From NCBI GenBank assembly GCA_903840355.1, contig CAIMFJ010000005.1, positions 248,001 to 312,000 of the forward strand: a stretch of DNA of 64,000 bases, in the 5' to 3' direction. This stretch comes from an uncultured Opitutia bacterium. GTDB taxonomy: Bacteria; Verrucomicrobiota; Verrucomicrobiia; Opitutales; UBA953. The notes below the pieces were generated by a model that was given only the letters and a program-made list of their open reading frames with translations, was not told the DNA's origin and did no database searches. Positions within the stretch are counted from its first letter, which is position 1; each line of letters starts with the position of its first letter. Of this stretch, positions 838 through 56,848 are shown one piece after another. The position numbers and the translations under genes are program-made.

Positions 838-1818
838 CTATTTACTCCATTCCAGCATGCGTTGTAGCGGAATCTCGGCAGCTCGTCTCACCGTTTCAGG
901 CAACGTAATTTCGGGGGACTGACGGATTAAGCACTGACGTACTTTTTCGAGTGTGTTCATTTTCATGAAGCGACACTCGTTGCAGGCACAACGGTCGGTG
1001 GGTGCTGCGACAAAAGTTTTTTCGGGTACTTCGCGTTGCAAGCGGTGAATCATTCCCGCTTCGGTGGTAACAATAATCTTCGAGGCCTTTTGTTGCCGAC
1101 ACCAGCCCACCATGAGTTCGGTGGAGCATACCATATCAGCCATCTCTCGCACGGCTTCGGTGCACTCGGGGTGGGCGACAATGGGAGCGTCGGGGTGGGC
1201 AGCCTTAGTACGTAAGAGGGCGTTGGGAGTGAATTGTACGTGGGCGTAGCAATTGCCTGGCCAGAGTTGCATGGCGCGTCCGGTTTTGCGCGAAACCCAA
1301 TTGCCGAGGTTTTGGTCGGGGACAAACAAGATGGGACGATCGGCGGGAACTTTTTGGACAATCTTGCTGGCGTTGCCACTGGTGCAGATGACATCACTCA
1401 GGGCTTTCACCGCCGCACTGCAATTGATGTAAGCCACAACGTAAAGTTCGGGGTGAGCCGCTTTGATGGCCGCAAGTTTTTCGGCTGAGCAAGAATCGGC
1501 AAGCGAGCAACCCGCTTCCAAATCAGGTAAGAGAACCTTGCGTGTTGGGTTCACAATCTTGGCGGTTTCCGCCATGAAATGCACGCCACAGAACACAATC
1601 GTCGACGCTTTGGCTTGGGCGGCTTGATAAGCTAAACCGAGGGAATCGCCGACGTAATCGGCAATGCCTTGAATATCTTCGCACTGATAGTTGTGAGCGA
1701 GGATGATCGCATCGTGCTGCTTTTTCAGAGTGATAACTTCTTGCTGTAAAGCTGAGAGGGCACGCTCCTTCTCGAGAAGCGGTGGATAGACTGCGGCGAC
1801 GGGAAAGGGAGGGGTCAT
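838..1818 (-). CDS. nadA: Quinolinate synthase
   Basis: A 326-residue cytoplasmic enzyme that condenses iminoaspartate with dihydroxyacetone phosphate to quinolinate for NAD synthesis, using a [4Fe-4S] cluster. Cluster-type cysteines are visible in FCGVHFMAETAKI, VCTSGNAS and the C-terminal CACNECRFMKMNT, and the family phrase LAHNYQCEDIQGIADYVGDS is present in slightly split form near the N-terminus. The start chosen is the ATG at 1818, whose A and TG overlap the TGA stop of the Fur-family gene (ATGA). An ATG nine codons upstream at 1845 is possible but would overlap Fur by 31 bp. No nadB or nadC is seen nearby. Confidence 0.96.
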   Translation of the reverse strand: MTPPFPVAAVYPPLLEKERALSALQQEVITLKKQHDAIILAHNYQCEDIQGIADYVGDSLGLAYQAAQAKASTIVFCGVHFMAETAKIVNPTRKVLLPDLEAGCSLADSCSAEKLAAIKAAHPELYVVAYINCSAAVKALSDVICTSGNASKIVQKVPADRPILFVPDQNLGNWVSRKTGRAMQLWPGNCYAHVQFTPNALLRTKAAHPDAPIVAHPECTEAVREMADMVCSTELMVGWCRQQKASKIIVTTEAGMIHRLQREVPEKTFVAAPTDRCACNECRFMKMNTLEKVRQCLIRQSPEITLPETVRRAAEIPLQRMLEWSK

Positions 1819-2288
1819 GGGCGCAAAGGTTTCCTTTTTTGGCAACGTTCACAAATGGCGGTGACTTGGAGTTTTTGCGAGATGGGTCGCATGCCGTGTT
1901 TAGCTGCCACGGCTTTGCCGTACCACTCCATGAAAGGAGCGTCCACTTCAATAATCTCCTCGCAACTTTCACAAATCAGTTGGGCACGGAAAGTGGCGAT
2001 GCCCGATTCCGTTAAATAATATTTGTGATCGCGACCGACATCGACTTCGCGAATAATCCCGCTGCCTTTGAGTAAGGGCAGGGCACGGTAAATCGTGGCC
2101 CGGGAAACGGTGCGATCGAGGCCTTTGGCTTTTTTCAATAAATCTTCGGCCGTGTAGTGCCCCGTCAGTCCCTGAGCGGCTTCAAACACGGCCATACGCT
2201 GGCGGGTTGCTCGGAGCCCCTTTTCTGCAATGAAGGAACGAAAAGCACTTGATTGCTCGTTTGAATCTTGCGTGGCGGGTTTAGGCAT
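1815..2288 (-). CDS. Fur-family metal-responsive transcriptional regulator
   Basis: A 157-residue Fur/Zur/PerR-type repressor. Residues ~20-85 form the winged helix (GLRATRQRMAVFEAAQ, SRATIYRALPLL). The C-terminal dimerisation domain has HKYYLTESG and two CxxC pairs, CESC and CERC, which in this family bind a structural zinc. Which metal it senses cannot be read from the sequence. The stop overlaps the nadA start by ATGA, so the two are translated from one message. It diverges from the DAHP synthase gene; the 120 bp between them hold both promoters, but I see no clear Fur box there. Confidence 0.93.
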   Translation of the reverse strand: MPKPATQDSNEQSSAFRSFIAEKGLRATRQRMAVFEAAQGLTGHYTAEDLLKKAKGLDRTVSRATIYRALPLLKGSGIIREVDVGRDHKYYLTESGIATFRAQLICESCEEIIEVDAPFMEWYGKAVAAKHGMRPISQKLQVTAICERCQKRKPLRP

Positions 2289-50223: not shown

Positions 50224-52287
50224 TTAAAAACGACCGGTAATCGCAAGGCGGAATTGGCGCGGCTCGACAGGGTGAACGTGTACCTGGTTGGCAGGCGCAG
50301 CCGTGGGGGAAACCTGTGAGGTGTAATAATAGGCGATGTCTTGCGACTGACTATTGAGTAAATTTAAAACTTGTACCGAAGCATGCCACGTGGGATTAAT
50401 CTGGTAGCCGATCTCCGCATTCAGAATGGTGGTCGGATTTGAAGTAACCGCACCGGTTGAAATTAAATCGCGTGGTCCGAAATAGCGAAGCCGTAACGAG
50501 CCGCTCCAGCCAGAACTGTCGTGTACCGTGACTCCTGCGGATACGACTTGGTTAATCGCTTCTGGAACTGAGCGACCGCCGTCGGAATCCGCATAGAGGA
50601 AGATGGCTTGGGAGGCTGCAAAATCGAGGTCAAACGTCACCCAGCGATTAAGTGTGTAATAGTTGGCCCATTCGATGCCGTAACGTTGACTTGGACCCTC
50701 GGCACTCAAAGTCCCCGTATCGCCGTCTAAAACTAATTCTGAATTGTTATGGAGGTACCAGAACGAGAGGGTGCTTTGGAGATTATTGATGACGGAGGTA
50801 CGAAGACCTACTTCAGCACCTCGGGCGGCGACTAGACCTTGCAGCGGGGTGCTGCCACCGCTGGTAAGCGTGGTCCCGCGAGCATCATTACTGTGAAAAC
50901 CGTAACCTGCTTGGAAGTAATATTCAGTCTGATTCCAGGGACCCCAAACCAGCGTGAATTTGGGGCTGGGAAGTGTTGAAGTGGCACGACCGCTGTCCGC
51001 TGCGCTCAGGGCAGTAACGGCGGTAAACTGTTCATCGACTCGAAGTCCGACGATGCTTTTAAAGGTCGGCGACCATTGGGTTTTGTTTTCAACATAGGCA
51101 CCAACTTCGCCAACGCTGAAAGTGTCTTGAACCACGGTTGCATAACGGCCCCGGTTTACCGTATCGTAGATGCCGTTGTTCACCCAATCATTGCGAACCT
51201 GTAAGCCGAAAGTGGTTTCTGATTTATGGCCGGAAAAATTACCGAAGATGGCATGCGAAAGGTTTAAGCCGGCTCCCGTTCGACTATCGGCTTGTTCGAA
51301 TTGATCGCCTAAAGTCGGGTTGTTCAGGTAATAAGTAAAATCTGAAAACAGGTCTAAGTCATAATGGTAAACATAGACTTGGGCCTTATCGATGGTGCCC
51401 GCGCCTTGAGCATGCCATTCGCTGGAAAGGGAGAAGTAGTGCGATAAGCCACCATCCGTGGGATTCATCGTGCCATAGGGCGAAAGCGTGCCATCGGCTA
51501 CTAGGGACGTCGGGATTTGGTCGCTGGAATTCCAGGTACCTTGGTAGCCCCGGAATGTAATGCTCTGGCCATTCTTGGCGTCGCCTTGGGACCAACTGAT
51601 TTGTTGGTTATATTTCCGGTAATCATCAGGACGCAGCCAGGGGCCGTCATCATGTTCTACTTGGATGCCGTAGAGGAGCGTTCCATTGCCGACTTTGGAG
51701 GAGTTCGCTAAGACCAAGCGTTCGTAACCATCCCCTCCGACTTCAAAAGTCGCTAAGCCTTGGGGGAGTGACTTGTAGAAATTTAAATAGGCGGCGCCGG
51801 CGGTTCCGAAATCGCCCGTCGCGGCGTAGTAAGGACCCTTTTGGTAGTTAATCGTCTCAATCAACTCTGGAATCACCACGTTCATGTCCGCATAGCCTTG
51901 GCCGTGGGCATGCGAGGGCATGTTGAGGGGGACGCCATCGAGGAAGGTCGCAAAGTCCGTCCCGTGATCGAGGTTAAAGCCGCGTAAGAAATATTGGTTA
52001 GCTTTACCGCCGCCTGCGTGCTGGGTGATAATCAGACCGGGCACCGTTTCGAGTAATTCACCGACGCGGAGCAGGGGGCGTTCGGCCATTTGTTCGGCCC
52101 CAGTGACCCCTTGAGTCGCAGATTCCGCAATCCCGATGAGGTTATCTTGTCGTCCCGTGACAACGACTGGGGGAAGGACTTCCTGTGATGAACTGGCCGG
52201 TGAGACAGGAGTGGTTGGCGAGCTGGAATCTGCCGCACCCAGAGTCGCTGCTGCCAGCAGTAAATTTAATGAGATTCTAAAAGTCAT
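50224..52287 (-). CDS. TonB-dependent outer-membrane receptor
   Basis: A 687-residue beta-barrel receptor with signal peptide (start ATG 52287, MTFRISLNLLLAAATLGAA; the longer reading adds a non-signal lead). The plug domain spans ~45-170 with LPPVVVTGRQDNLIG and LLETVPGLIITQHAGGGKANQYFLRG; the barrel follows and ends in the usual aromatic F (FRLAITGRF). The NQYFLRGFNLDHGTDFATFLDG stretch is typical of the family. It is not in an operon with the TonB genes at 52529-56751, though it lies just beside them. The substrate is not known. Confidence 0.92.
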   Translation of the reverse strand: MTFRISLNLLLAAATLGAADSSSPTTPVSPASSSQEVLPPVVVTGRQDNLIGIAESATQGVTGAEQMAERPLLRVGELLETVPGLIITQHAGGGKANQYFLRGFNLDHGTDFATFLDGVPLNMPSHAHGQGYADMNVVIPELIETINYQKGPYYAATGDFGTAGAAYLNFYKSLPQGLATFEVGGDGYERLVLANSSKVGNGTLLYGIQVEHDDGPWLRPDDYRKYNQQISWSQGDAKNGQSITFRGYQGTWNSSDQIPTSLVADGTLSPYGTMNPTDGGLSHYFSLSSEWHAQGAGTIDKAQVYVYHYDLDLFSDFTYYLNNPTLGDQFEQADSRTGAGLNLSHAIFGNFSGHKSETTFGLQVRNDWVNNGIYDTVNRGRYATVVQDTFSVGEVGAYVENKTQWSPTFKSIVGLRVDEQFTAVTALSAADSGRATSTLPSPKFTLVWGPWNQTEYYFQAGYGFHSNDARGTTLTSGGSTPLQGLVAARGAEVGLRTSVINNLQSTLSFWYLHNNSELVLDGDTGTLSAEGPSQRYGIEWANYYTLNRWVTFDLDFAASQAIFLYADSDGGRSVPEAINQVVSAGVTVHDSSGWSGSLRLRYFGPRDLISTGAVTSNPTTILNAEIGYQINPTWHASVQVLNLLNSQSQDIAYYYTSQVSPTAAPANQVHVHPVEPRQFRLAITGRF

Positions 52288-52410
52288 TATGGTGAAGAAA
52301 TGGCAGGCAGGGGAGTTTGAGATGTAAGGTAACCTGCACCTTTTAGGCAAGTTTTACTAAGGTCTGCGGGTAGGGACATAAGGAGCCAAGCAGCGCTATA
52401 CGGCACGAGC

Positions 52411-52432
52411 GGACGACATGGTCATGTCGTCC
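52411..52432. repeat. Hairpin repeat D1
   Basis: Arms GGACGACATG and CATGTCGTCC (10 bp, perfect) around GT, followed by CTACCC. Best-paired member of the family. Confidence 0.85.
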
Positions 52433-52457
52433 CTACCCGATACAATGCCTTGGGTAG

Positions 52458-52479
52458 GGAGGCTGCAGCGTCAGCCTCC
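52458..52479. repeat. Hairpin repeat D2
   Basis: Arms GGAGGCTG and CAGCCTCC (8 bp, perfect) around CAGCGT, with GGGTA just before. Same stem as C1. Confidence 0.85.
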
Positions 52480-52488
52480 TTGTTTGTA

Positions 52489-52510
52489 GGACGATGACGC
52501 AGTATCGTCC
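52489..52510. repeat. Hairpin repeat D3, copy of A3
   Basis: GGACGATG and TATCGTCC (one mismatch) around ACGCAG, followed by CTACC. It lies 18 bp from the stop of the 52529 gene. Confidence 0.8.
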
Positions 52511-52528
52511 CTACCTGATTCCTTAGCT

Positions 52529-53068
52529 CTATTTGGCCGCGTTTTCTTGATTTAACTTATTCAACATCTCGGTCCGCTCGTTGAGCAATTTTACGACCTC
52601 ATTACGATCTTCGACGATTTTCTTATAAGCTTCGTTTTGCTTTACGATGATTTCATTCTGTTTTTTGACCGCGTTGTTCAGTTCGTTGATGACGCTGTTT
52701 TGGCGTCGAATGCCATCGTTTTGTTTTTCGATACCTTGCAAGGCAGCATTCAAATTGGCTTTGGTTTGGAGTAACTCCGCTGCTGTTTTGCGTAATTCGG
52801 TATTGGCCTTGGCGACTTCGGTTTTGAGATTGGACTCACTTTGTTTGAGTTCAGCCTGACGCTTTTCGAGTTGGCCGATTTCCGTGGCGTAGGTCTCGGC
52901 TAGGCGACTTGCTTCCAGGGCATCCTTTTCTTTCTTTACTAAGGCAAGGTTGGTGGTGACCAAAAGTTGGCGTAATTCCGCTTCACGTTGCCATTGGACG
53001 ATACAAGCCATCGCAAGTAAGATTCCTAAACCCGCTAAACCCCAAGCCCAGCGTGCGGAAACGTTCAT
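52529..53068 (-). CDS. Unknown membrane-anchored coiled-coil protein of the TonB operon
   Basis: A 179-residue protein I cannot name. One N-terminal transmembrane helix (WAWGLAGLGILLAMACIV) is followed by an almost continuous coiled coil (~28-178) with repeats of K, Q, N, E. The last third contains the repeated pattern KQN/RQN (EKQNDGIRRQN, KKQNEIIVKQNEAYKK). Its ATG overlaps the ExbD stop (ATGA). No known TonB-system partner of this form is familiar; a periplasmic spacer is a guess. Confidence 0.72.
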   Translation of the reverse strand: MNVSARWAWGLAGLGILLAMACIVQWQREAELRQLLVTTNLALVKKEKDALEASRLAETYATEIGQLEKRQAELKQSESNLKTEVAKANTELRKTAAELLQTKANLNAALQGIEKQNDGIRRQNSVINELNNAVKKQNEIIVKQNEAYKKIVEDRNEVVKLLNERTEMLNKLNQENAAK

Positions 53069-53481
53069 TGGGAAGCGCCGTTTTTAACGGTGAAGGCAAC
53101 TTTTTGGACCCCGGCCCCGCGGACGAAGTCGAGGACGTTAATCATTTTGCCATGCGGGGTTTCGCGATCACCTGCGATGTATACCGTCATGCCACTATTG
53201 GTCTTGAGACGGGCGAGTAAGGTCTCGCGTAGTTCAGGGAGCGTCACCGCATTGTGTTCGATAAAAACTTTGCCTTCCCGGTCGACGGAGAGCGTGAGGG
53301 CGTCAGGTTTGAAATCCGACTTCGCATGGGCCGCACCCTCCAAGTTCACGGGCATGTTGCGGTTTTTATGCATCGTTAGGCTAACCATCATAAACGAAGC
53401 CAAGAGGAAGAACATGATGTCGATGAGCGGGATGATTTCCAACCGCGGTCGACGGTGCCCAATCGGAGAAATAATTTTCAT
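53065..53481 (-). CDS. Biopolymer transport protein ExbD/TolR family
   Basis: A 138-residue protein with one TM helix. The proton-path Asp is in LEIIPLIDIMFFLLASFMM, and the periplasmic domain has VYIAGDRETPHGKMINVLDF. With ExbB it forms the proton-driven motor that energises TonB. It starts eight bases after the ExbB stop and its own stop is overlapped by the coiled-coil gene. Confidence 0.93.
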   Translation of the reverse strand: MKIISPIGHRRPRLEIIPLIDIMFFLLASFMMVSLTMHKNRNMPVNLEGAAHAKSDFKPDALTLSVDREGKVFIEHNAVTLPELRETLLARLKTNSGMTVYIAGDRETPHGKMINVLDFVRGAGVQKVAFTVKNGASQ

Positions 53482-53488
53482 AACTTAA

Positions 53489-54121
53489 TTATTTTTGACG
53501 TGCTTCGTGCTTATGAGCGGCCACTTGCAGGGTGGTTGCCGCCGCTTCAATGTCCGATTGCAAGCCCGCTAAACGCGTGGAAAGGGTGTTGAGGGGGATT
53601 AAAGTCGTAATCGCAATCCCGAGACCTGCCGCGGTAGCAATCAGCGCTTCGCCGATACCCCCCGTGACGTGTACCACGGAGAGCTCGTCATTACCGATGG
53701 AGTTAAAGGACGACATAATACCCGTCACGGTACCTAGTAAGCCCAGCAAGGGCGCTAAGGTGACCAAGGTGTCCAGGGTGGGGATGAAGCGAGCAGCTTC
53801 ACGTAACTCTCGGCCTGAGGCCACTTGGATGGCACCCTCTAAAGAGGTTTCGCGATGTTCTAAGCCGGCCGCTAAGACTTTGGCCACGGGGTCTTCGGAC
53901 GTCGCCGCTAGTTTAGAGGCTTCAGCCCAAGCCCCGCGCTCCGCGGCTTCCAAAATTTTGCTGACGGTTTTAGCATCGCGACGGGCCGTGTGGCGCAACC
54001 ACCAGAGCACCCGCTCACCCACGACCGCAAGGGCGATCAAGGCGGCGACGAGTAAAGGATACATGATCGGGCCGCCTTTGAGGAAAAGGTCGACGATCAC
54101 ATTGGCGAGGACAGGAGTCAT
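53489..54121 (-). CDS. ExbB/TolQ/MotA-family proton channel protein
   Basis: A 210-residue inner-membrane protein. Three TM helices are visible, with the conserved LGLLGTVTGIMSSF and GIGEALIATAAGLGIAITTLIP of the MotA/TolQ/ExbB fold. It lies between tonB and exbD, one base after the TonB stop. Confidence 0.93.
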   Translation of the reverse strand: MTPVLANVIVDLFLKGGPIMYPLLVAALIALAVVGERVLWWLRHTARRDAKTVSKILEAAERGAWAEASKLAATSEDPVAKVLAAGLEHRETSLEGAIQVASGRELREAARFIPTLDTLVTLAPLLGLLGTVTGIMSSFNSIGNDELSVVHVTGGIGEALIATAAGLGIAITTLIPLNTLSTRLAGLQSDIEAAATTLQVAAHKHEARQK

Positions 54122-54122
54122 G

Positions 54123-54764
54123 TTATTGTAATTCGAAAATAAAAGGGATGACGTAGACGCGGTGAGAGCCAGGTACCCAGCTCCAATGGTTTTTCACCCA
54201 GTCTAGGACATGTTGATCAAGTAAGGTGAAGCCCGAGGTTTCTTTGATTTTAATCTCGGTGATCGTGCCGTTGCTGGCGATATCGACCTGCAGTTTAATC
54301 TGCCCCTGCATGCTTTGTTGTCGTGCCCAGCGCGGGTACGGCGGGGCGGGGAAGGTGCCAGCGTTGGCGTTGGGCGTAAAAGCCGTAGGCTTGAGGGTTG
54401 TCGCGGTCGATGGCCCAGGGGCTTGAAAGGGCTTTAAGTTGACCAAAGTTGGCAGGGTGGGTAGGGTCACCGCCGGTACGGCATCAGCAATCGCAGGTAA
54501 AGCGGGCATCACGGCGGGGGGACTCGGCGCGGCAGGTTCTGGGGTCGCCTCCGTGGGTGGGGGTGTGGGAGGGGCTTCGCTCTCGGGTGGCGGGATAAAG
54601 ACTTCGACAGGTGTAGTAGGCTCCTGCGATTTACGGTCAAAATGTGATAAGGTGACCGTTGGCGAAAAGTAGCCCCAGACCGCGACAAGCAAAATTCCAA
54701 CCAAGCAGGAACTGATCCAAGCTAGCCAGCGTTCTGGGTTCTTATTTTCGTAGACCACCAGCAC
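54123..54764 (-). CDS. TonB-family energy transducer
   Basis: A 213-residue protein with an N-terminal TM helix (ISSCLVGILLVAVWGYF), a long Pro/Glu/Ala-rich periplasm-spanning region (~50-110), and a C-terminal TonB domain (YPRWARQQSMQGQIKLQVDIASNG, EIKIKETSGFTLLDQHVLDWVKNHWSW). It starts one base after the stop of the receptor gene at 54766. Confidence 0.92.
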   Translation of the reverse strand: MLVVYENKNPERWLAWISSCLVGILLVAVWGYFSPTVTLSHFDRKSQEPTTPVEVFIPPPESEAPPTPPPTEATPEPAAPSPPAVMPALPAIADAVPAVTLPTLPTLVNLKPFQAPGPSTATTLKPTAFTPNANAGTFPAPPYPRWARQQSMQGQIKLQVDIASNGTITEIKIKETSGFTLLDQHVLDWVKNHWSWVPGSHRVYVIPFIFELQ

Positions 54765-54765
54765 G

Positions 54766-56751
54766 TTAGAAGGTCAGTTTGAGCGAAGCTTCGATGCCCC
54801 GGCCTGGTAGGGGTAAGATGTCCTTGAGGAAGGAGGAGGCATCTTGTCCGTAGCGGTTCAGTAAATTCGTAAGTTTCAAATTAAACGTCCCATTGGCGTC
54901 GGAGATTTTTACCGGGTGCGAAAAATTAGCACCCAACATGGCAAAACCAGGCGTAGGCGTTTCGCCAGCCGCTAAGTTGTATTGACCAAGGTGATACGTG
55001 AGGTCGACGCGCCACGTCCAGTCTGCCAGCAAACCATTGATGGCCGTGCCAAGGCGCCCTGGGGAGATTCGGGGGATAGCTTCACCCGTGTCGGCATTGC
55101 GTGCCCGTAGGTAATCACCGAAAAATTCTAACTGAAGTTTTTCGGTTTTGGTATTGGTTAGGTCGACTTGAGTTTTTACTTCTGCCCCATAAAAATCCGC
55201 CGGAATGGCTGCGTAATCATAACGTGGAATTGTACTGTAATCCGCATAACCTAAATTTGGACCGTAACCATTCTGCAGCTGGGCAATGAAAGAGTAGAAG
55301 TGATTATAGTAGATGGAGGCGCTTCCCGTGACCATTCCCTGATTCTTGTTGAGGGCCATTTCCAGACCAATCGCCCGCTCAATGCCCAAGGAACTATTGC
55401 CCACTTCATAGGCATTCGTTCCGAGGTGAGGTCCATCGGCGTACAGTTCTTGAAAGTTAGGCGCCCGTTCGGTGTGAGATAAGGTCAGGCTGCTTTGCCA
55501 AGTCTGGCTCCAGTCTTTAACCAAGCCGACTGAGAGCGCGAGGGGGATGAAGGAGCGATTGTCGGGTGGGTGGGATGCTAAGATGCCTACGTGATTCCAG
55601 TCATCTGCGGCCACACGATCATTTTCGAGGCGGAATCCGTAACGCAGTTTCCAAGATTTATCGCCTAAGAGATTGGTGAAGGAGCCGAAGAGGGCTTCAT
55701 TACTTGAATGGGTGACGGGAAGAAAAGCTTCGTCGCCCGTGACGGTGAAATCTGACTTTCCGGCCGCGATACCGAAGATTCCTTCTAGCCCACCGTGTTT
55801 GCCGAGGTCCACGTCCACGCGACTATCCCAGCCTTGGTTTGAAAACACCGTGCCGGGTACGCCGTAGTCGAGTTCCGTATGACCATAATCGGAAATCCCT
55901 AATTTATAATTAATACTTTTAATACCTTCGAAAGGCTTGTCGGTGCCACCCGCTAAATCCCAGCGATGTTGGTGTAGGTCAATCAGTGTTCCGGGTGCAG
56001 CCACGCCATATTGACTGTTGAGGAGTGAATAAGAAATCCCGATGTGGCTATTGGCTCCGATATAAGAAATCCCCAAGCCGGCGCCGGTGGAAACGCTCGA
56101 GGTGTCGGAGATAGTGCCGATGGGCGTATCGAGGTTATCGGTCGTCTTGGTGAAGCCGTCGAGGTGGTAAGCCCATTGTCCAATGGAACCTTGTACCAGC
56201 AGTGAATTGGCTCGCAGGGCGTCGACCGAGCCAAAACGGGTTAGGAAGGTGCCTTGATTCGGCAACAGCTCGTCAGGGATACGATTATCAACTAAGTTGA
56301 TGACGCCGCCAAGAATACTACCGGAGTAAAGTAAGCCCGCTGGCCCGCGGAGTACGTCAATTTGACGGATGGTCAGTGGGTCAGCGCTGACAGCGTGATC
56401 GGGACTCACACTAGAAGCGTCCAAGGTGTTGGTGCCGTTTTGGGTGATTTTGACGCGATCACCTTCGAGTCCGCGGACAATGGGTCGTCCTGCATTTGGT
56501 CCGAAGTAACTTGAACTGATACCCGGTAAATCTGAGAGTAAATCTCCGACATCGGCTTGTGCCAGCGATTCTAGTTTGAGCGAACTCATCACCATCGTGG
56601 GGGCATCCGGTGTGGATTCGGGTGCAATGGAAGTGTCTTTAATGACGACTGGCTTGAGCTCCTGAGCGGTTTCTTCTGCCTGGAGCAAGAGGCCTGCTGA
56701 CAATAACAGAAGCAAAGAAACGAACGGTTTTCTGGCGCAGGCAGGAGTCAT
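54766..56751 (-). CDS. TonB-dependent receptor leading the TonB-ExbB-ExbD operon
   Basis: A 661-residue outer-membrane receptor. The signal peptide (FVSLLLLLSAGLLLQA) is followed by a plug with DLLSDLPGISSSYFGPNAGRP and VRGLEGDRVKITQNG, then a barrel ending LKLTF. The conserved RPIVRGLEGDRVKI resembles receptors for metal complexes such as zinc (ZnuD-like), a suggestion only. A 12-bp-arm palindrome lies 10 bp before the ATG. It heads the operon of four further genes. Confidence 0.92.
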   Translation of the reverse strand: MTPACARKPFVSLLLLLSAGLLLQAEETAQELKPVVIKDTSIAPESTPDAPTMVMSSLKLESLAQADVGDLLSDLPGISSSYFGPNAGRPIVRGLEGDRVKITQNGTNTLDASSVSPDHAVSADPLTIRQIDVLRGPAGLLYSGSILGGVINLVDNRIPDELLPNQGTFLTRFGSVDALRANSLLVQGSIGQWAYHLDGFTKTTDNLDTPIGTISDTSSVSTGAGLGISYIGANSHIGISYSLLNSQYGVAAPGTLIDLHQHRWDLAGGTDKPFEGIKSINYKLGISDYGHTELDYGVPGTVFSNQGWDSRVDVDLGKHGGLEGIFGIAAGKSDFTVTGDEAFLPVTHSSNEALFGSFTNLLGDKSWKLRYGFRLENDRVAADDWNHVGILASHPPDNRSFIPLALSVGLVKDWSQTWQSSLTLSHTERAPNFQELYADGPHLGTNAYEVGNSSLGIERAIGLEMALNKNQGMVTGSASIYYNHFYSFIAQLQNGYGPNLGYADYSTIPRYDYAAIPADFYGAEVKTQVDLTNTKTEKLQLEFFGDYLRARNADTGEAIPRISPGRLGTAINGLLADWTWRVDLTYHLGQYNLAAGETPTPGFAMLGANFSHPVKISDANGTFNLKLTNLLNRYGQDASSFLKDILPLPGRGIEASLKLTF

Positions 56752-56761
56752 GCAGGTACCC

Positions 56762-56788
56762 CCCTAATGCAAACTTTTTGCATTAGGG
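56762..56788 (-). promoter_or_regulatory. Palindrome overlapping the receptor translation start
   Basis: Perfect arms CCCTAATGCAAA and TTTGCATTAGGG (12 bp) around three bases. On the minus-strand mRNA it sits just upstream of the ATG, and its right arm runs into a G6 stretch that could serve as Shine-Dalgarno. It could be a repressor operator (Fur/Zur type) or an RNA hairpin that hides the ribosome site. Confidence 0.6.
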
Positions 56789-56848
56789 AATCAAGGGGTA
56801 TTTTATTAAATAATCGTAAAGGGGCAGCCTAAGTCGCCCGCCAACGAC

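Follow-up and report, generated by a model that had tools for sequence, protein, structure and literature searches.

We identified the perfect palindrome close to the start of a TonB-dependent receptor gene as a predicted Zur operator, at which a zinc-sensing repressor very probably switches off a zinc receptor operon under ample zinc. The palindrome lies in a DNA stretch of 64,000 nt that was analysed as a whole (hereafter, the window). It is 10 nt upstream of the receptor start codon (56749-56751, minus strand) and consists of two arms of 12 nt (56762-56773 and 56777-56788) with 3 nt between them, as a previous reading made from the sequence alone (the sequence-only reading) had described it.

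Results

The palindrome and the receptor operon

By calculation, chance alone would produce a palindrome with perfect 12-bp arms and a loop no longer than 10 nt approximately 0.04 times per 64 kb. The sequence TAATGCAAANNNTTTGCATTA had a single match in the window when up to three mismatches were allowed, and the mean in shuffled sequences was 0.01 (one of 100 shuffles contained a match). Comparison with relatives revealed that the part that is kept is narrower than the full palindrome and corresponds to ATGCAA-N5-TTGCAT with weak flanks. The outer CCC/GGG pairs are the source of the run of six G, and among the znuD loci compared they were present in this genome only. On the minus strand the G-run is situated downstream of the palindrome, with three of its six G within the arm. 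Shine-Dalgarno-like motifs were nearly absent in the window (1/42 genes, which is below the value of 8% for random 13-nt windows).

Table 1 Operator region and genes of the window considered in this study
Feature	Position	Strand	Basis or remark
Perfect inverted repeat, 12-bp arms, 3-nt spacer	56762..56788	.	Inverted-repeat search
Predicted Zur operator, 21 bp	56765..56785	.	Own-genome, genus and class comparisons
Conserved operator core	TGCAA 56768-56772, N5 56773-56777, TTGCA 56778-56782		
Run of six G, Shine-Dalgarno candidate of the sequence-only reading	56759..56764	minus	Relatives without G-run
ZnuD-like TonB-dependent receptor, 661 aa, first gene of operon	54766..56751	minus	Pfam Plug and barrel; NCBIfam NF038289
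tonB	54123..54764	minus	Pfam
exbB	53489..54121	minus	Pfam
exbD	53065..53481	minus	Pfam
179-aa protein of unknown function	52529..53068	minus	No Pfam match; also found behind exbD in several relatives
Second TonB-dependent receptor, HAHGQGY type	50224..52350	minus	Pfam; without box of its own
Fur-family protein named by the sequence-only reading	1815..2288	minus	Clade without HHHH cluster; not the preferred regulator

The first receptor had the ZnuD model NF038289 as its top NCBIfam model (281.6 bits, with a cut-off of 950), and the next model scored 89 bits. It is followed by tonB, exbB, exbD, the gene for the 179-aa protein and, after a gap, the second receptor, a gene set most naturally interpreted as a zinc system. 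Two arrangements were seen in relatives: tonB-exbB-exbD behind znuD, or a homologue of the second receptor immediately behind it, the latter in many of them. The gap before the second receptor (52350-52529) contains two similar imperfect palindromes of the GGTAGGGACGA type, which are REP-like.

Recurrence of the box in the same genome

Scanning the 2.27 Mb of the genome with up to three mismatches yielded three sites, compared to none for the reversed pattern. Besides the palindrome of the window, a second site is located 34 nt upstream of the start of znuA, which is followed by genes for an ABC ATPase and a permease (znuABC operon). The palindromic site recurs before zinc uptake genes. According to the NCBIfam models, the znuA-like protein also resembles MntC. 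A relaxed scan based on 14 specified bases and three mismatches was useless, as it returned 71 matches versus 68 for the reversed control.

The third site (C1:21168, contig 1) has unrelated genes as neighbours. We also observed a 136-bp element, perhaps a mobile or recombination element, with 80% identity between L116 4070-4205 (G000:C1:21069-21204) and G004:C59:61869-62004; it was present in only 2 of 57 genomes, carries a box-like palindrome and adjoins non-zinc genes.

Conservation of the box in the genus and in other relatives

The box (11 or more of the 14 bases matching, no further than 160 nt away) was found upstream of znuD in 14 of 15 genus loci and upstream of znuA in all 30 genus loci examined, which were taken from a larger set of matches; the own genome is included in both counts. 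As a control, other 160-nt windows from these loci were scored, and the box was present in 0/380 (znuD) and 1/535 (znuA) of them. G002 (L064) is excluded from the 15 znuD loci, because its contig ends, and G004 is the only miss among them. No box precedes znuD in L215 and L216 (the latter being G004), the two genomes whose receptors are most similar to that of the window (63-65% identity). The absence of the palindrome before orthologous receptors had been named as the observation that would speak against a regulatory role; the box is present in nearly all of the genus loci.

In a second collection, 21 Verrucomicrobiota loci had usable upstream sequence: the exact core was present in 17 loci, a core with one mismatch in two, and nothing in another two, although many of these loci come from the same genomes as the first collection and are not independent. 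This collection places the relatives among freshwater Opitutae-type Verrucomicrobiota. An order-level scan of relatives was noisy, with nearly as many matches for the reversed control as for the motif in several genomes. Outside Verrucomicrobiota, the receptor homologues were nearly all from Betaproteobacteria, and the TGCAA-N5-TTGCA core was found upstream in 6 of 56 of them with usable sequence (L235, L236, L237, L241, L244 and L259, mostly betaproteobacterial). L227, L228 and L238, which lack upstream sequence, were left out of this comparison.

GCAA-N5-TTGC was invariant in all 29 distinct boxes, whereas the flanks drift and symmetry is often lost. An invariant core with drifting, asymmetric flanks is the mark of a protein site, as opposed to an RNA stem maintained through base pairing. 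Furthermore, lpxA was found upstream of znuD in no relative's locus examined, and since the box is nevertheless kept there, it belongs to znuD.

The box across the class

The exact 14-base motif occurred at 24 sites in 23 of 384 class genomes, and its reversed control at none. Zinc-linked neighbours were recognised at 14 of these sites: znuA (4), znuD (3), ZigA or a ZigA homologue (2), choice-of-anchor M (4) and ZepA (1). Five more sites precede prepilin-like genes with choice-of-anchor M behind (2) or genes for a histidine-rich outer-membrane protein (1), MerC (1) and an OprB porin (1), and another five of the 24 have no recognised zinc neighbour. The neighbours assigned to ZigA and to the Zur-repressed all3515/ZepA family pass the curated cut-offs; the ZepA-family member adjoins the box in G352. 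Two loci include a Fur-family gene as well: in G047, two boxes are followed by genes for an outer-membrane protein, znuA, an ORF of unknown function, znuC, znuB and the Fur-family gene, and in G414 the box is located between the Fur-family gene and a divergent znuD homologue.

Judging from these neighbours, the chances are about even that the TGCAA-N5-TTGCA box marks a zinc regulon throughout the class (Verrucomicrobiota) which includes members so far not recognised as zinc genes, namely a cassette of genes for a DUF1559/prepilin-like protein and a choice-of-anchor-M surface protein, MerC and histidine-rich outer-membrane proteins. When 30 prepilin-like loci, out of 68 genomes with a match, were inspected, choice-of-anchor M was a neighbour in 28, and the box (at least 11 of 14 matches, at most 300 nt upstream) was present in 15, versus 11 of 236 other windows in the control. 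Loci of this candidate zinc-scavenging cassette are L203, L207, L214, L319, L321 and L336-L365. At E 1e-20, a prepilin-like gene of this kind is absent from the genome of the window.

The candidate regulator

The sequence-only reading had pointed to a Fur-family gene at 1815, which indeed exists, as the possible regulator. The genome contains four Fur-family genes, and another one, C4:557261 on a different contig, fits better. All 30 of its orthologues examined carry HHHH ahead of the first CxxC, versus 0 of 30 for the orthologues of the window gene; our reading of this motif draws on what is generally known of Fur-type sensory sites. The C4 gene groups with the Fur-family gene at the end of G047's boxed znu operon and with that divergent from the znuD homologue of G414 in a Zur-like clade, defined here by gene context, with a support of 98/96 in a tree from which three long-branch rows had been dropped and to which one had been added (100/99 with the three included). 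The top solved structures for the C4 protein include 2o03, named zinc uptake regulator, and 3mwm (Streptomyces Zur). It stayed under every NCBIfam cut-off, Zur included, and the Zur model was its eighth match. Boxes were sought near the Fur-family genes of the genome, C4 included, and none was found. The other two Fur-family genes adjoin suf and katG genes, which were named by eye. Taken together, the C4 protein is the likely regulator acting as Zur, in place of the window protein. The window clade without HHHH (orthologues L154-L183) is itself conserved in the order.

Proposed mechanism

In ten relatives the ATG follows the box by 9-14 nt and there is no G-run. By eye, CTTG 12 bp upstream of the box and TATTGC in the right half of the box form a -35/-10-like pair in the relatives, and the window has a weaker match to it; a sigma-70 consensus promoter was not found at the window site. 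With such a pair the message probably begins after the operator; in the relatives the operator would then overlap the promoter, and the leader would be very short. A zinc-bound Zur dimer on TGCAA-N5-TTGCA would cover the promoter and block transcription of znuD-tonB-exbB-exbD, and the genes behind exbD would probably be repressed as well. When zinc is scarce, Zur would leave, and the receptor system would be made together with the products of the znuABC operon bearing the same box. Zinc as the corepressor and repression by promoter occlusion are inferred here; for repression by zinc-bound Zur we rely on what is known of the family, as outlined in the cited part of a review (PMC6103462).

Alternative explanations

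The sequence-only reading had also considered a leader RNA hairpin, which would control translation by masking the G-run as the ribosome site. In the predicted fold of the window sequence the entire G-run is indeed paired (-23.1 kcal/mol, z -2.33; 3 of 200 shuffles did equally well), but five other leaders had z from -1.65 to 0.38, and the G-run with its CCC/GGG pairs is confined to this genome among the znuD loci compared. The core is invariant without compensatory changes and the outer pairs are often broken, so that no conserved covarying helix masking a used Shine-Dalgarno sequence emerged, nor was there any Rfam match. Moreover, the distance from the box to the start differs between znuD (9-14 nt in the ten relatives) and znuA (mostly 28-30 nt to the likely start), and Shine-Dalgarno-like motifs precede 1/42 window genes versus 1/42 at a control position, with the longest ATG taken as a crude choice of start. 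We consider translational control by such a hairpin very unlikely. Even more improbable, to the point of being negligible, is a transcription terminator of the upstream lpxC/fabZ-lpxA genes: the palindrome follows lpxA, which is on the same strand, at a distance of 60 nt, but a T-run is absent, no terminator-like site was found, and a box that relatives keep without lpxA upstream is, by synteny, hard to explain in this way.

The palindrome could also be the operator of another Fur-family regulator, i.e., iron Fur, nickel Nur or manganese Mur, or of the Fur-family protein encoded in the window. The box core is that of the Nur box, given as tTGCaa-N5-ttGCAA in the cited part of PMC3919588, the genome offers four Fur-family genes, and the znuA-like protein also resembles MntC. 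On the other hand, the neighbours of the box are zinc genes, with ZigA and ZepA at curated cut-offs among them, boxed loci elsewhere bear Zur-clade genes, and the orthologues of the window Fur-family protein lack HHHH in 30/30. Another Fur-family regulator is very improbable. No nickel or SOD target genes were found among the box neighbours, and a Nur operator, like an iron operator, was set aside.

Discussion

The expectation of a metal uptake operon under a metal-regulator operator was supported and can be sharpened to zinc and Zur, as ZnuD is the top model of the receptor and the box precedes both znuD and znuA. The genomes directly show the motif, its conservation within the genus ahead of these two genes, and its position next to zinc genes across the class.

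Judged by its bases, the window operator is of a type already known, as predicted for Zur of Desulfovibrio in 2004: in the part of that study cited here, ATGCAACNNNGTTGCAT was predicted as the Zur site in two Desulfovibrio genomes (PMC545781). The window site shares 12 of the 14 specified bases with it, including ATGCAA-N5-TTGCAT, although it lacks C/G at the ends of N5, belongs to a different phylum and has a receptor operon as its target, whereas the Desulfovibrio sites lie upstream of znuABC-zur operons (PMC545781). The Streptomyces Nur box, as described in the cited part of PMC3919588, has the same TGCAA-N5-TTGCA core and spacing; its outer bases are T/A instead of the A/T of the window, and the window box accompanies zinc and not nickel genes.

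A Zur site before an outer-membrane zinc receptor is also known from ZnuD of Neisseria. In Caulobacter, Zur likewise represses TonB receptors, but via sites of the TGTTAT and not of the TGCAA type, according to the cited part of PMC4176598. The window site matches neither the Caulobacter nor the enterobacterial Zur-site type. ZepA homologues occur in the PVC superphylum according to the cited part of PMC10957091, and this zinc system (ZepA/all3515) is represented by the family member next to the box in G352; no such member was noticed among the neighbours of the three sites in the genome of the window. The result lists of a literature search on Zur and Verrucomicrobia contained no Zur regulon study in Verrucomicrobiota.

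With these results the palindrome can be put to the test as an operator through which freshwater Opitutae-like bacteria would respond to zinc, and its likely regulator is named on another contig. The motif can be used to find zinc genes of unknown function across the class. If the class-wide regulon is real, the DUF1559/prepilin-like and choice-of-anchor-M cassette and its companions would be an undescribed surface zinc-scavenging system.
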